Positions 6,176 to 42,211 of a DNA stretch of 64,000 nucleotides are shown here, one piece after another. Origin of the DNA: Lentisphaerota bacterium. GTDB lineage: Bacteria; Verrucomicrobiota; Lentisphaeria; Victivallales; Victivallaceae. The notes under the pieces were generated by a model, which was given only the letters and a program-made list of their open reading frames with translations, was not told the origin of the DNA and did no database searches. Each line of letters begins with the position of its first letter. The first letter of the stretch is position 1. The stretch lies in assembly GCA_015061775.1 (NCBI GenBank), contig SUVY01000003.1, positions 1 through 64,000 on the forward strand. The letters are read 5' to 3'. The position numbers and the translations under genes are program-made.

Positions 6176-6330
6176 TTCAGGAAAAGCGGAGTACTTTTGC
6201 AAAAGAAGTCGTATAAGTCGTATAAGTCGTATAAGTCCTATTGGAAGGCTGGCAGTCTTTCTCGCGCGGGCATAGCAAACCAACGGCAAAAAAATAGCGA
6301 AGCACCCAAAAGTACTCCGCTTTTCTTGAA
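6176..6330. repeat. 24-bp inverted repeat pair (6176-6199 / 6307-6330)
   Basis: TTCAGGAAAAGCGGAGTACTTTTG versus CAAAAGTACTCCGCTTTTCTTGAA: one mismatch in 24. Confidence 0.85.
6206..6241. repeat. 9-bp tandem repeat (AAGTCGTAT)x3 plus AAGTCCTAT
   Basis: Four consecutive 9-bp units read directly, the last with one change. Confidence 0.95.
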
Positions 6331-6411
6331 AAGGGATGGGGTTTGGGGAAGGGAAAAACTTCTTTTCCTGTGAAAAGAAGTTTTTCCCTTCCCCAAGAAC
6401 ACACTCCCCTT
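6311..6411. repeat. Dispersed palindromic element, copy 2 (perfect 23-bp stem, 6345-6394)
   Basis: AGTACTCCGCTTTTCTTGAAAAGG lead, then GGGGAAGGGAAAAACTTCTTTTC ctgt GAAAAGAAGTTTTTCCCTTCCCC. Lies between convergent pilin and lysS genes. Confidence 0.9.
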
Positions 6412-37467: not shown

Positions 37468-38346
37468 ATGTCAGTTGTCTATAATCTCGGTTCACTCAAT
37501 CTTGATCAGATATACCAGGTTCCGCACCACGTGGAAAGCGGAGAAACGCTCTCGGCGACCGCTTTCCGGGTAGGAGCCGGAGGCAAAGGCTGCAATCAGT
37601 CGATAGCCTGCGCTCTTGCCGGAGCAAAAGTATTCCATGCTGGCTGTATCGGCAAAGACGGCGTGATGCTCAAAGAGCTGCTCGAAAAGAGCGGAGCTGA
37701 CACGTCTTTTCTGGAGGTTCTCGAAGAGCCGACCGGCAGAGCCGTGGTGATGGTGAATTCAGAAGGAAACAACTCCATCGTCCTCTTTGGAGGAGCAAAC
37801 CAAATGGTATCCTCTTCTCTTATCGAAAGAGTGGTCTCTTCTGCCTCATTTGGAGACATCCTGCTTCTTCAAAATGAGACAAATATGCTTGCCGAAGCGA
37901 TGAGTGCAGCAAAAGAGAAGGGTATGAAAATAGTGTTCAACTTTGCTCCGTTCGACGGCAAAAAGGCTGAGACGCTTCCGCTGGAACTGGTAGATTATCT
38001 TATCGTCAACGAGATCGAGGGGGCAGGGCTTGCCGGAGTGCAGGAGCCGCAGAAGATACTTGAAGTGCTGTGCGCCAAATACCCGGAAACACAAATCCTC
38101 CTGACGCTGGGAGCAGACGGAGTAGTCTGGGCTGGACCGCAGGGCAGCGGAGAGCTTCCGGCATTTCCCGCCGAGGTGGTGGACACCACCGCAGCCGGAG
38201 ACACATTTATCGGATATTTTCTTGCCGGAATAATAGAAAACATGAGTATCGGAGAAGCCGCGACGCTCGCCTCAAAGGCAAGTGCGATCTGCTGCTCCCG
38301 CCCCGGAGCCGGAACCGCCATCCCCGCCCGCCGCGAGATCGGTTGA
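37468..38346 (+). CDS. rbsK: Ribokinase (PfkB family)
   Basis: GSLNLDQIYQVPHHVESGETLSA, GGKGCNQSIACALAGAKVFHAGCIGKDG, VVDTTAAGDTFIGYFLAGI. Confidence 0.9.
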   Translation: MSVVYNLGSLNLDQIYQVPHHVESGETLSATAFRVGAGGKGCNQSIACALAGAKVFHAGCIGKDGVMLKELLEKSGADTSFLEVLEEPTGRAVVMVNSEGNNSIVLFGGANQMVSSSLIERVVSSASFGDILLLQNETNMLAEAMSAAKEKGMKIVFNFAPFDGKKAETLPLELVDYLIVNEIEGAGLAGVQEPQKILEVLCAKYPETQILLTLGADGVVWAGPQGSGELPAFPAEVVDTTAAGDTFIGYFLAGIIENMSIGEAATLASKASAICCSRPGAGTAIPARREIG

Positions 38347-38371
38347 AAAAACAAGCACAGATAATAGCGTT

Positions 38372-38617
38372 GGTTACCTGTTCAGATCCCGTCCGTCTTC
38401 GGTTGCTTCGCAACTCTACGCCGCGACAAGCCAAGCACGTTCATAGCCAGCGCACGCAGTAGTATGCAGAGTATTGCACGGCAAAGGTGCGACACATACA
38501 ATGGCGGGCTGAATACTTCACCACATACGTAAATACTCCGTTCAATTCCGTTCACTCCGTTCCTCTCCGTTCATGAGCCTGCAGTCTTCTCGCGCCGAAC
38601 CGGCGTGGCTTGGCAGA
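38372..38617. repeat. MITE-like palindromic repeat, copy A (partial left arm)
   Basis: 38465-38617 matches 40550-40702 over 153 bp with about 6 differences by eye. Ends GCCAAGC...GCTTGGC. Confidence 0.85.
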
Positions 38618-38685
38618 CTCTTCTCGCCAACAAACCAGTTGGTACCAGGTCAAAGAGTCGCCACGGCTTGTTTTCTCTGGCGGCA

Positions 38686-39168
38686 TTACCGGGAGCGGTT
38701 TTGCTCTTTGTCATCAGTTGAGAAAACAAGACACCACGCTTTGCGCAAGTAGTTGTTTTTTTCGTAATACATCGGACCCGCGTCCGGAGTTTGCGGGTAA
38801 AACAAAATCAGTCTTGCAACGAAAAGTGCAAGGCTTGCTGCGATAAGCAGAGTCAGCCATTTGCGGTTTGCCTTGATTTGGTCCGCAATTTTGCACAGAT
38901 TGTGGGGAAGGCATCCGGCGGCAAGTGTGATTATCAGGGGCAGAAAAAGAGGATGCCAGAAAAAGCTCTCTTTGAAGTTTCCGCGTAAAAAATAGAGTCC
39001 GGCATGTGTGAGACCACATCCCGGACACGGGAAACCGCTCAAAGCTCTCCAGAAACAGAGTTGAAAATCTCCAAGGAGAAGCTTGTTGGTTGCGCCGTAT
39101 ATCAAAAACATAGCCAGCGCGACCAGAACGATTTGAATATCTATATTACTGTTGTTGGGCAAGCGCAT
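38686..39168 (-). CDS. DUF2752-like membrane protein
   Basis: 160 aa, FPCPGCGLTHAGLYFLRGNFKESFFWHPLFLPL, the DUF2752-type PCPGCGxTR/H signature. Confidence 0.8.
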   Translation of the reverse strand: MRLPNNSNIDIQIVLVALAMFLIYGATNKLLLGDFQLCFWRALSGFPCPGCGLTHAGLYFLRGNFKESFFWHPLFLPLIITLAAGCLPHNLCKIADQIKANRKWLTLLIAASLALFVARLILFYPQTPDAGPMYYEKNNYLRKAWCLVFSTDDKEQNRSR

Positions 39169-39502
39169 TGAGACGTTTCATCTGGTCAGCTACTGCAATC
39201 GGCCACAGTATCGGAACAAACAGAGTAAGGAACCACGGCATAGAGCTTGCAGGAGTGATTCCTTTCTGAGCTTCAAGTATGGTGAGCTGCTCGTTACTGA
39301 GGTACAATCCGTAAAAGCCGATAATAACAGCAATCCAGTGCGCAGAGTCATCGACTCCAAAGGCTTTTGCAAATTCTCTTCTGAACGCGTGCATTTGAAA
39401 TATCAGCGGAAAACCGCAGCAGCAACAGTAGCCGATAAACAGCATCAAAATATTTGGAGTCTGTCCGATTTTCCAATCCAAAAATCCACCCGCTTCGTTC
39501 AT
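39146..39502 (-). CDS. Small membrane protein of unknown function
   Basis: 118 aa; FIGYCCCCGFPLIFQ and two further hydrophobic segments. Overlaps the DUF2752 gene by 23 bp. Confidence 0.6.
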   Translation of the reverse strand: MNEAGGFLDWKIGQTPNILMLFIGYCCCCGFPLIFQMHAFRREFAKAFGVDDSAHWIAVIIGFYGLYLSNEQLTILEAQKGITPASSMPWFLTLFVPILWPIAVADQMKRLNALAQQQ

Positions 39503-39549
39503 AATTTTTACCTTTCTTTTATATTGTTATTATTTACCTTTGTCAGGTG

Positions 39550-39630
39550 TTGAAGTTTAATATAATGTAACATTTTTTTTTTTCAAGCGTTTATGACTTT
39601 TGTTGCCCGTTTTTGTTTGAAAAAAAGTTG
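39550..39630. repeat. Direct repeat, likely promoter segment, copy 1
   Basis: TTTAATATAATGTAACATTTTTTTTTTTCAAGCGTTTATGACTTTTGTTGCCCGTTTTTGTTTGAAAAAAAGT; matches 40303-40372. Confidence 0.85.
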
Positions 39631-39651
39631 TTTGAATGTTTTTTCGTTATA

Positions 39652-40200
39652 TCAACCGATTTCGTCTTCGGCAAGAATTATGGCAGCAGCAGCGATCTTC
39701 AAGGCATTTTCTTGATTATTGACAGTAACTGTTTTGCCATTGGATAATGTGAAGATAGCACCGGAAACTATTCCGCAGCACTCTTCTCCTCTGGTTATTG
39801 AGTACTTTGTCGGAATGAACCAGCTTATACGCGGGAGCCACATTACCAGAGAACGCACTATGTTTTGGGACATAACAAGGTCTTCACATTGCCACTTGCA
39901 TCCAGTAAACAGTTCACCGAATCCGTTGGATAATCTCTGCCAGGTAAAAAGAGTCTGGTTTGTTTCAGTATCTATGCAGGAGAATGTTTTTTCGCTCCGT
40001 ATGAATTGATATGCTGGAGAACTGTTTTCTGATTTGGCAAGGTTATAGGTTTTTATATCCTTTTCTTCATCATGTGAAACAGAAATAACAGCTATAGTTG
40101 CTTTTCCCCGGCAAACTTCAAAGCTGGAATTTTCTTTGCTCCTTATTCCATATCCGCCCTTTTGAATAAAGGACAACCATGACTGGTCTTTGTTATCCAT
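39652..40200 (-). CDS. Hypothetical protein (182 aa)
   Basis: MDNKDQSWLSFIQKGGYGIRSKENSSFEVCRGKATIAVISVSHDEEK...; RBS TGGAGGGAAA. The track's upstream start at 40320 lies in the promoter repeat and is unlikely. Confidence 0.6.
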   Translation of the reverse strand: MDNKDQSWLSFIQKGGYGIRSKENSSFEVCRGKATIAVISVSHDEEKDIKTYNLAKSENSSPAYQFIRSEKTFSCIDTETNQTLFTWQRLSNGFGELFTGCKWQCEDLVMSQNIVRSLVMWLPRISWFIPTKYSITRGEECCGIVSGAIFTLSNGKTVTVNNQENALKIAAAAIILAEDEIG

Positions 40201-40288
40201 TTTCCCTCCATAGTTTGCAGCTTGAAAACTTATATGGTCAGAACCCGCGTGCTGCAATCTTTTTACGGTGCATCCTGACTGAACTACA

Positions 40289-40372
40289 TTGAAGTATATC
40301 AACTTAATATAGTGTAACATTTTTTTTTCAAGCGTTTATGACTTTTGTTGCCCGTTTTTTTTGAAAAAATAG
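40289..40372. repeat. Direct repeat, likely promoter segment, copy 2
   Basis: CTTAATATAGTGTAACATTTTTTTTTCAAGCGTTTATGACTTTTGTTGCCCGTTTTTTTTGAAAAAATAGT. Confidence 0.85.
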
Positions 40373-40413
40373 TGTTTGTGTGTTTTGCCAAGAGATGGGG
40401 GCAAATAACCGAG

Positions 40414-40702
40414 GGTTACCTACTCAAAGCCCGCCAAGCACGTTCAGAACCGGCGCGAGAAAAAACGCCCGCCTTTAGAACGGAGTTGAACGGAATTGAA
40501 CGGAGTGAACGGATAGCCGGGGCGGAGAAGTATGCCGCACGCATTTGTTTGCAGAGTATTGCACGGCAAAGGTGCGACAAATACAATGGTGTGCTGAATA
40601 CTTCACCACATACGTAAATACTCCGTTCAATTCCGTTCACTCCGTTCCTCTCCGTTCAGGAGCCTGCTGTCTTCTCGCGCCGAACCAGCGTGGCTTGGCA
40701 GA
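40414..40702. repeat. MITE-like palindromic repeat, copy B (~270 bp, long imperfect terminal inverted repeats)
   Basis: Left arm GCCAAGCACG...CGGCGCGAGAA...GAACGGAGTTGAACGGAATTGAACGGAGTGAACGGA; right arm CTCCGTTCAATTCCGTTCACTCCGTTC...TTCTCGCGCCG...CGTGGCTTGGC. Confidence 0.85.
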
Positions 40703-40742
40703 TATGCGCGCCAACCGACGGCGGTTTCCAAATTATCCAGCA

Positions 40743-40807: not shown

Positions 40808-42211
40808 TCAGTTTATGAGAGCTTTCATTTTGTTTACCAGGTCGAACTGCTGGATGTATCCTGCGATGAAGATCGCGGCTATCAGGACGGGCAGAATGTA
40901 CTTGATATAGAAAAAGCTCTTTTGCGGAAATTTTATTCCCTGACCTGTATCGGACTCCGCGATAAAGTTTTTCCATCCCCACGCGTATTTGGTGACGCAG
41001 AAGAACCAGATGAAAAAAGCTCCGAGCGGAAGCAGATTCTGGCTGACGATGAAGTCCTCGAAATCAAGGATCGTACTGCCTTTGCCCAGCGGAGAGATGT
41101 GTTTGAGAACTCCGAATCCCAGCGAGCAGGGGACCGACAATACCATTACCGCCAATCCGGAAACGACCGCGGCTTTTTTACGTCCGAAGGCAAATTCGTC
41201 GATAAGGAATGCCGCGATGTTCTCTATAACTGCGATAAGCGTGGTCAATGCCGCGAGCAGCAGGAAGAGGAAAAACGCTCCTCCGATAAGCCACGGATAT
41301 TTCATGCTGTTGAAAATATTTGGCAGACTGACAAACACGAGACCGGGACCTTGTGCCACATCGACTCCGTAAGAGAAGCAGATGGGGAAGATCATCGTTC
41401 CGGCGAGCAGGGCAACGAGCGTATCGAGCAAAATGATGACGATACCTTCACCGCCGAGCGTGCGTTTTTTATCGATGTAGCTGCCGAAAATCGCCATGCT
41501 TCCTATTCCGATACTGAGGGTGAAGAATGCCTGTCCCATTGCCGCATAAAGCGTTGAGCAGACTCCTTTGGCTGCGACTCTGGAGAAATCCGGAAGCAGA
41601 TAAAAGCGCATAGCTTTTCCCGCTTCGCTCAGGAAACAGCTTCTGACTGCAAGAATTATCAGCATGACAAAGAGCAGCGACATCATGAATTTGACACATT
41701 TTTCCACCCCCTTCTGCAAACCTATCGCGCAGATAGCCGTTGACAGCAGCGTTACAACCGCCATTCCGGCAGTGGAGCGGACCGGGTCGCTGATGAGCTT
41801 TGAAAAATATGCTCCGGTGGCATCTGCGCTTTTGCATGAGGCAAGCGAGCCGTCGAGATATCCGGCAAGATACGAGCCGAGCCATCCTGTGACGGTGGAG
41901 TAATACATGAGCAGTATCAGATTTCCTGCAAAAAAGAGGACACCGATTTTGCTGTATATTCCGCCGTGTTTTCCGCCGAGTTTGCGGTATCCGCCCACGA
42001 GGTTGCTGCCTCCGGCTCTGCCGACGGCAAGCTCCATGGTGAGGATGGGGTATCCGAGCACGGCGAGGAATATCAGATAGATGAGGACGAACGCACCTCC
42101 GCCGTATTCACCGGTAATGAAGGGGAAACGCCAAACGTTTCCGAGTCCGATGGTGCATCCTGCGGCAAGGGCGAGAAAGCCGAGTCTGGAACCTAAAGTT
42201 TCTCTTGCCAT
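40808..42211 (-). CDS. Sodium-dependent transporter, SNF/NSS family
   Basis: LGSRLGFLALAAGCTIGLGNVWRFPFITGEYGGGAFVLIYLIF, PILTMELAVGRAGGSN, QAFFTLSIGIGSMAIFGSY. Confidence 0.95.
   Translation of the reverse strand: MARETLGSRLGFLALAAGCTIGLGNVWRFPFITGEYGGGAFVLIYLIFLAVLGYPILTMELAVGRAGGSNLVGGYRKLGGKHGGIYSKIGVLFFAGNLILLMYYSTVTGWLGSYLAGYLDGSLASCKSADATGAYFSKLISDPVRSTAGMAVVTLLSTAICAIGLQKGVEKCVKFMMSLLFVMLIILAVRSCFLSEAGKAMRFYLLPDFSRVAAKGVCSTLYAAMGQAFFTLSIGIGSMAIFGSYIDKKRTLGGEGIVIILLDTLVALLAGTMIFPICFSYGVDVAQGPGLVFVSLPNIFNSMKYPWLIGGAFFLFLLLAALTTLIAVIENIAAFLIDEFAFGRKKAAVVSGLAVMVLSVPCSLGFGVLKHISPLGKGSTILDFEDFIVSQNLLPLGAFFIWFFCVTKYAWGWKNFIAESDTGQGIKFPQKSFFYIKYILPVLIAAIFIAGYIQQFDLVNKMKALIN

Follow-up and report, generated by a model that had tools for sequence, protein, structure and literature searches.

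Two nearly identical repeats on either side of a small group of genes raise the question of whether the repeats brought the genes to their present place, or whether the pair came about in another way. Such a pair occurs in a 64,000-nt stretch of DNA (hereafter, the window) from an uncultured gut bacterium of the Lentisphaeria, whose genome comprises 2.70 Mb in 107 contigs, and the initial annotation saw in it a cassette carried or framed by MITE-like elements. Our analysis points elsewhere: we consider it reasonably likely that a REP/MITE-like palindrome array took in foreign genes, served as a recombination point, or did both, and the locus is probably a case of ordinary repeat-associated genome scrambling, not of a mobile cassette. 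It consists of the following features:

37468..38346, plus strand: rbsK-type sugar kinase gene, the left boundary
38363..38660, plus strand: repeat copy 1, whole unit, truncated
about 38363-38429, plus strand: array linker of copy 1 with GGTTACC, followed by the GCCAAGCACG end
38686..39168, minus strand: DUF2752 membrane protein gene, 160 aa (Pfam PF10825, E 7e-14)
39146..39502, minus strand: small membrane protein gene, 118 aa, Cys-rich, with a CCCC motif and hydrophobic segments, overlapping the DUF2752 gene
39557..39636, minus strand: copy A of a promoter-like segment that precedes the small membrane protein gene (TTGAAA-16-TATATT)
39652..40320, minus strand: orphan gene, up to 222 aa, of no family
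40304..40378, minus strand: copy B of the promoter-like segment, preceding the orphan gene
40398..40735, plus strand: repeat copy 2, a full nested palindrome (core element 40433-40702, linkers on both sides)
40808..42211, minus strand: sodium:neurotransmitter symporter-family gene, the right boundary

The basic description of the locus stood up to recounting. Segments 38465-38617 and 40550-40702 differ at 6 of 153 nt, in keeping with the roughly 96% identity first noted, and enclose three minus-strand genes (DUF2752, small membrane protein, hypothetical) between rbsK and the transporter gene. Both copies have the same orientation, and their match, far above chance, widens to 167 nt at 95% identity (38451-38617 and 40536-40702, E = 1e-70); weaker similarity continues further left, with a GCCAAGCACGTTCA block at 38430 and 40433 and then the GGTTACC-containing linker. 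The term 'palindromic', however, applies to only one of the two. Copy 2 contains the full element of about 270 nt (40433-40702), which in arrays is accompanied by a linker of about 70 nt. Its ends are GCCAAGCACG...CGTGGCTTGGC, and its nested arms pair GCCAAGC with GCTTGGC, GCGCGAGAA with TTCTCGCGC, AACGGA units with TCCGTT units, and GGAGAAGTAT with ATACTTC; its fold lies 6.3 standard deviations below that of shuffled sequences (z = -6.3; DNA parameters). In copy 1 most of the left arm is gone; the core and the right arm persist until about 38613, followed by a degenerate linker remnant, and there is no folding in excess of shuffles (z = +0.5, computed with RNA parameters, unlike the value for copy 2), so that the pair does not consist of two intact palindromes. 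What the copies share over 153 nt is the loop and the right arm only.

The GCCAAGC...GCTTGGC pair constitutes terminal inverted repeats, present both in the single-copy fold and in a consensus of ten full copies. Of the 70 pairs shared in this consensus, just two display a double change, and with an unfavourable covariation term of +3.5 there is no support for selection on an RNA fold. An Rfam search of the window gave no match. In copies on contigs C29, C26 and C37 (L008, L009 and L010), the AACGGA decamers of the left arm are swapped for unrelated GAATACTATG decamers, which cannot pair with the right arm and therefore abolish pairing in the copies that carry them.

The repeat pair is not special to the islet. 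It belongs to a dispersed, intergenic and non-coding family of about 47 copies in this genome, counted as places where a third or more of the 167-nt query matches, with short fragments left out; the earlier likening to MITEs thus holds for a dispersed palindromic family of MITE-like or REP-like character, not for a structure peculiar to these three genes. A tree of the copies separates two subfamilies. Subfamily 1 includes the window copies and others on contigs C8, C18, C37, C50, C57, C79, C85 and elsewhere, while subfamily 2 is tight, with 21 tree rows, one of them from the related genome G002 (support 97/98). Members of subfamily 1 frequently stand head to tail in arrays of one orientation, the one on C57 having a period of 348 and 3.5 copies, those on C37, C29, C8 and C85 three, two to three, two and two copies, respectively. 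Array neighbours on C57, C37 and C8 cluster in the tree, and the window copies are likewise each other's closest kin (sisters with moderate support, 85/83), a pattern indicative of local duplication or conversion. The sampled copies are intergenic, mostly without cargo, and favour convergent gene ends: by simple ORF calls, made without a gene finder, 10 of the 19 two-sided cases are convergent pairs, compared to 41 of 296 background pairs. A search for other islets flanked by the repeat, as had been suggested, yielded no comparable one among the sampled copies. The only other short gene-holding interval between two copies in this sample lies on C85 (L209, 1-3472), where a subfamily-2 copy and a pair from subfamily 1 enclose a 755-aa ORF.

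With its palindromic structure and its dispersed and arrayed intergenic copies, the family resembles the REP/BIME elements associated with RAYT transposases, which are also multicopy, species-specific and mosaic (Nunvar et al. 2010, PMC2817692). REP units, however, are short, and BIMEs alternate in orientation (Nunvar et al. 2010, PMC2817692), whereas here the unit measures about 270 nt and is arrayed head to tail, in a family of about 47 copies, and a motif scan of about 319 kb around the copies plus the window found no RAYT (HUH-type) motif. Terminal inverted repeats, shortness, lack of coding capacity and intergenic multiplicity are features of MITEs. Bacterial examples such as MITEAba12 are likewise small, non-coding, multicopy and bounded by inverted ends (PMC6382973), but for our family neither a parent insertion sequence nor a target-site duplication was identified. 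The enterobacterial RU/IRU-ERIC-type units, of 103-168 bp (PMC2759123), are comparable as non-coding intergenic repeats of 100-300 nt that are regarded as MITE-like there; the present family differs in its tandem arrays and its two subfamilies. The repeat is a REP/MITE-like intergenic palindrome, and the literature search turned up no account of its family.

How the islet relates to its surroundings can be judged from one relative that is close enough for synteny comparison, G002 (about 75% nucleotide identity), whose syntenic contig is that of Lentisphaeria bacterium RGIG5525 (100% identity over 4466 nt). In this relative, a short toxin-antitoxin-like patch, which we read as AbrB-like and Fic/Doc-like ORFs, comes after rbsK and precedes a tRNA-like stretch (tRNA-Gln) and V-ATPase genes. 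The transporter gene directly adjoins the run of fpg, recX, phosphoglycerate mutase and ftsH; it converges on fpg, with their stop codons 5 bp apart and no repeat in between. In the genome studied here, the V-ATPase genes lie on contig C48; those from fpg to ftsH share one contig, C23 (77777-80747), and one orientation. Directly after fpg stands an array of the very repeat that flanks the islet, extending off the contig end, so that a junction free of repeats in G002 bears the repeat on both of its sides, between fpg and the array and between copy 2 and the transporter gene. The junction of rbsK and the transporter gene, in turn, is made up of copy 1, the islet and copy 2. As these two genes belong to unrelated neighbourhoods in G002, the islet is located at a gene-order breakpoint. 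The proposed check for an empty site in related genomes therefore led to a rearrangement junction, not to a simple insertion point: with rbsK and the transporter gene lying apart in G002, that genome offers no empty site for the islet, and a simple insertion is neither demonstrated nor required. Nothing in G002 corresponds to the islet, and the synteny of genes and repeats across all relatives that the initial annotation named as its refutation was not observed. The array on C8 likewise stands between genes with separate locations in G002, and neither this array (flanks mapping apart) nor the one on C57 (one flank placed) gave an empty site there. However, gene order between the two species is generally unstable, with about four breaks in the C23 region, and the breakpoints at 58.9 kb of C23 and 9.8 kb of C48 have no repeat; a causal role of the repeats is hence something we can only infer.

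One join of this arrangement, the one inside copy 2, is open to doubt. An identical stretch of 40 nt forms the end of C23, the beginning of C18 and positions 40501-40540 of the window, and copy 2 shares exactly 75 nt with the end of C23 and 58 nt with the start of C18, indicating that the assembly graph branches here. Conceivably, the join inside copy 2 is wrong and the true order is fpg, array and transporter gene, matching the adjacency of fpg and the transporter gene in G002, with the islet running into C18. We find this unlikely and favour the assembly as given, because under the other pairing about 40 kb of C23 would have to form a circle, carrying housekeeping genes such as ftsH. Moreover, no copy of the repeat occurs where C23 is joined at 58.9 and 66.5 kb, and an error at copy 2 would leave copy 1, the islet and the junction with rbsK unaltered. 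Metagenome-assembled contigs of such bacteria branch within repeats of this kind, which calls for caution in reading their assemblies.

The genes between the copies make up about 1.7 kb of low-GC DNA, with GC3 values of 0.52, 0.49 and 0.42 for the three genes, compared to 0.54-0.66 in nine of ten neighbouring genes measured; the tenth, a SEL1-repeat gene (0.52), belongs to a segment that the G002 contig lacks. The DUF2752 protein has remote relatives elsewhere, with up to about 38% identity over short stretches (best hit 32%). For the small membrane protein, the NCBIfam CCC-motif match falls below threshold (E 0.33), and none of 59 related genomes searched, 33 of them of the same genus, contains a close relative. 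The orphan protein, whose start is more likely at about 40200 (182 aa) than at the 222-aa position, matched nothing in family searches, in these 59 relatives, in any other genome of a 388-genome sample of the phylum or among solved structures (best E 0.47), and its structure model was unusable (mean pLDDT 43). Both islet transcription units start with the same promoter-like segment, of which copies A and B form a direct repeat with 91% identity and one copy passes a sigma-70 consensus scan; the islet thus has an internal duplication of its own. At a guess, the two units encode cell-envelope proteins. Defence-system models did not match the islet. Integron cassettes with attC arrays were considered and rejected, as the arrays here are mostly free of genes and the islet contains no integrase family.

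Low GC content and the lack of close relatives in the genus, together with multicopy palindromic repeats at both ends, are what a composite mobile cassette might look like, in which two MITE-like elements and three genes moved together by a transposase acting in trans from elsewhere. We nonetheless regard such a cassette as quite improbable. The repeats are non-coding, no transposase families were found among the islet ORFs or in the flanking elements, and the motif scan described above found no Y1/RAYT-type signature near the copies. Copy 1 is truncated, without excess folding, and the flanks form a rearrangement junction instead of a clean empty site in a relative. Nor was a target-site duplication found; array linkers and hairpin mosaics obscure where elements end, and the divergence of G002 is too great to place insertion points exactly. 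Neighbouring copies of one orientation, finally, are normal for the gene-free arrays of this genome, whose members are tree neighbours just as the window pair is.

That the islet and its repeats were always here and were lost or moved in G002 and other relatives gains some room from there being a single relative usable for synteny, for which reason polarity cannot be set, but is highly improbable given the low GC of the islet and the absence of the orphan and small membrane protein genes from all 59 relatives.

In the array reading that we prefer, the islet lies between two neighbours of a local, same-orientation array of hairpins (about 270 nt) and linkers (about 70 nt) at a breakpoint. The repeat spreads and amplifies locally, as its dispersed copies and clustered array members show; recombination or junction formation at the repeats may then have rearranged the neighbourhoods of rbsK, the transporter gene and fpg, and the low-GC DNA with the orphan gene and the operon of the small membrane protein and DUF2752 may have been inserted or trapped between array members. 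The repeats would accordingly be landing sites and recombination substrates, not vehicles for genes. A striking repeat pair around an islet can thus be a by-product of an abundant intergenic repeat family, and in this uncultured phylum such arrays of palindromes flag breakpoints of gene order that they may themselves cause.

Beyond this genome, a search of 60 related genomes (own included) with the repeat query hit only G002, at a single place on both strands, and, marginally, 43 nt of G007. The G002 copy (L151, C9:1-340) is 93-97% identical to most well-preserved subfamily-2 copies here, and 86-88% to more damaged ones, whereas orthologous regions of the two genomes show about 73-79% identity, a difference that could reflect recent transfer, concerted evolution or mis-binning. 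It also underlies a wider reading, which we hold to be doubtful, in which large palindromic repeats spread horizontally among gut Lentisphaeria, with their arrays as recurrent recombination points that scramble gene order and capture islets of orphan genes. Searches of phages and plasmids found neither the repeat nor the orphan protein, and viral contigs contained no exact repeat strings.

Subfamily-2 copies lie within intergenic hairpin mosaics of several hundred nt, as seen in the left flanks of L013, L014, L016, L017, L025 and L032. At one slot of these mosaics the shape of the hairpin is kept while its stem sequence varies by locus, for example CCCTGCACCGATTTTTCTATCGGTTCAGGG, CACAGAGCCAATTTTTATATTGGCTCTGTG or GTGAGCCGATTTTCCTATCGGCTCAC. 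Right ends of this subfamily (e.g. L013, L025 and L016) show an intrinsic-terminator-like hairpin, GGCTGTTGC...GCAACAGCC, with the T-run on the opposite strand, which belongs to the gene on that side. A separate palindromic intergenic repeat of about 90 nt occurs in the window at 6308-6394 and 2410-2562, and has dozens of copies in this genome and in G002.
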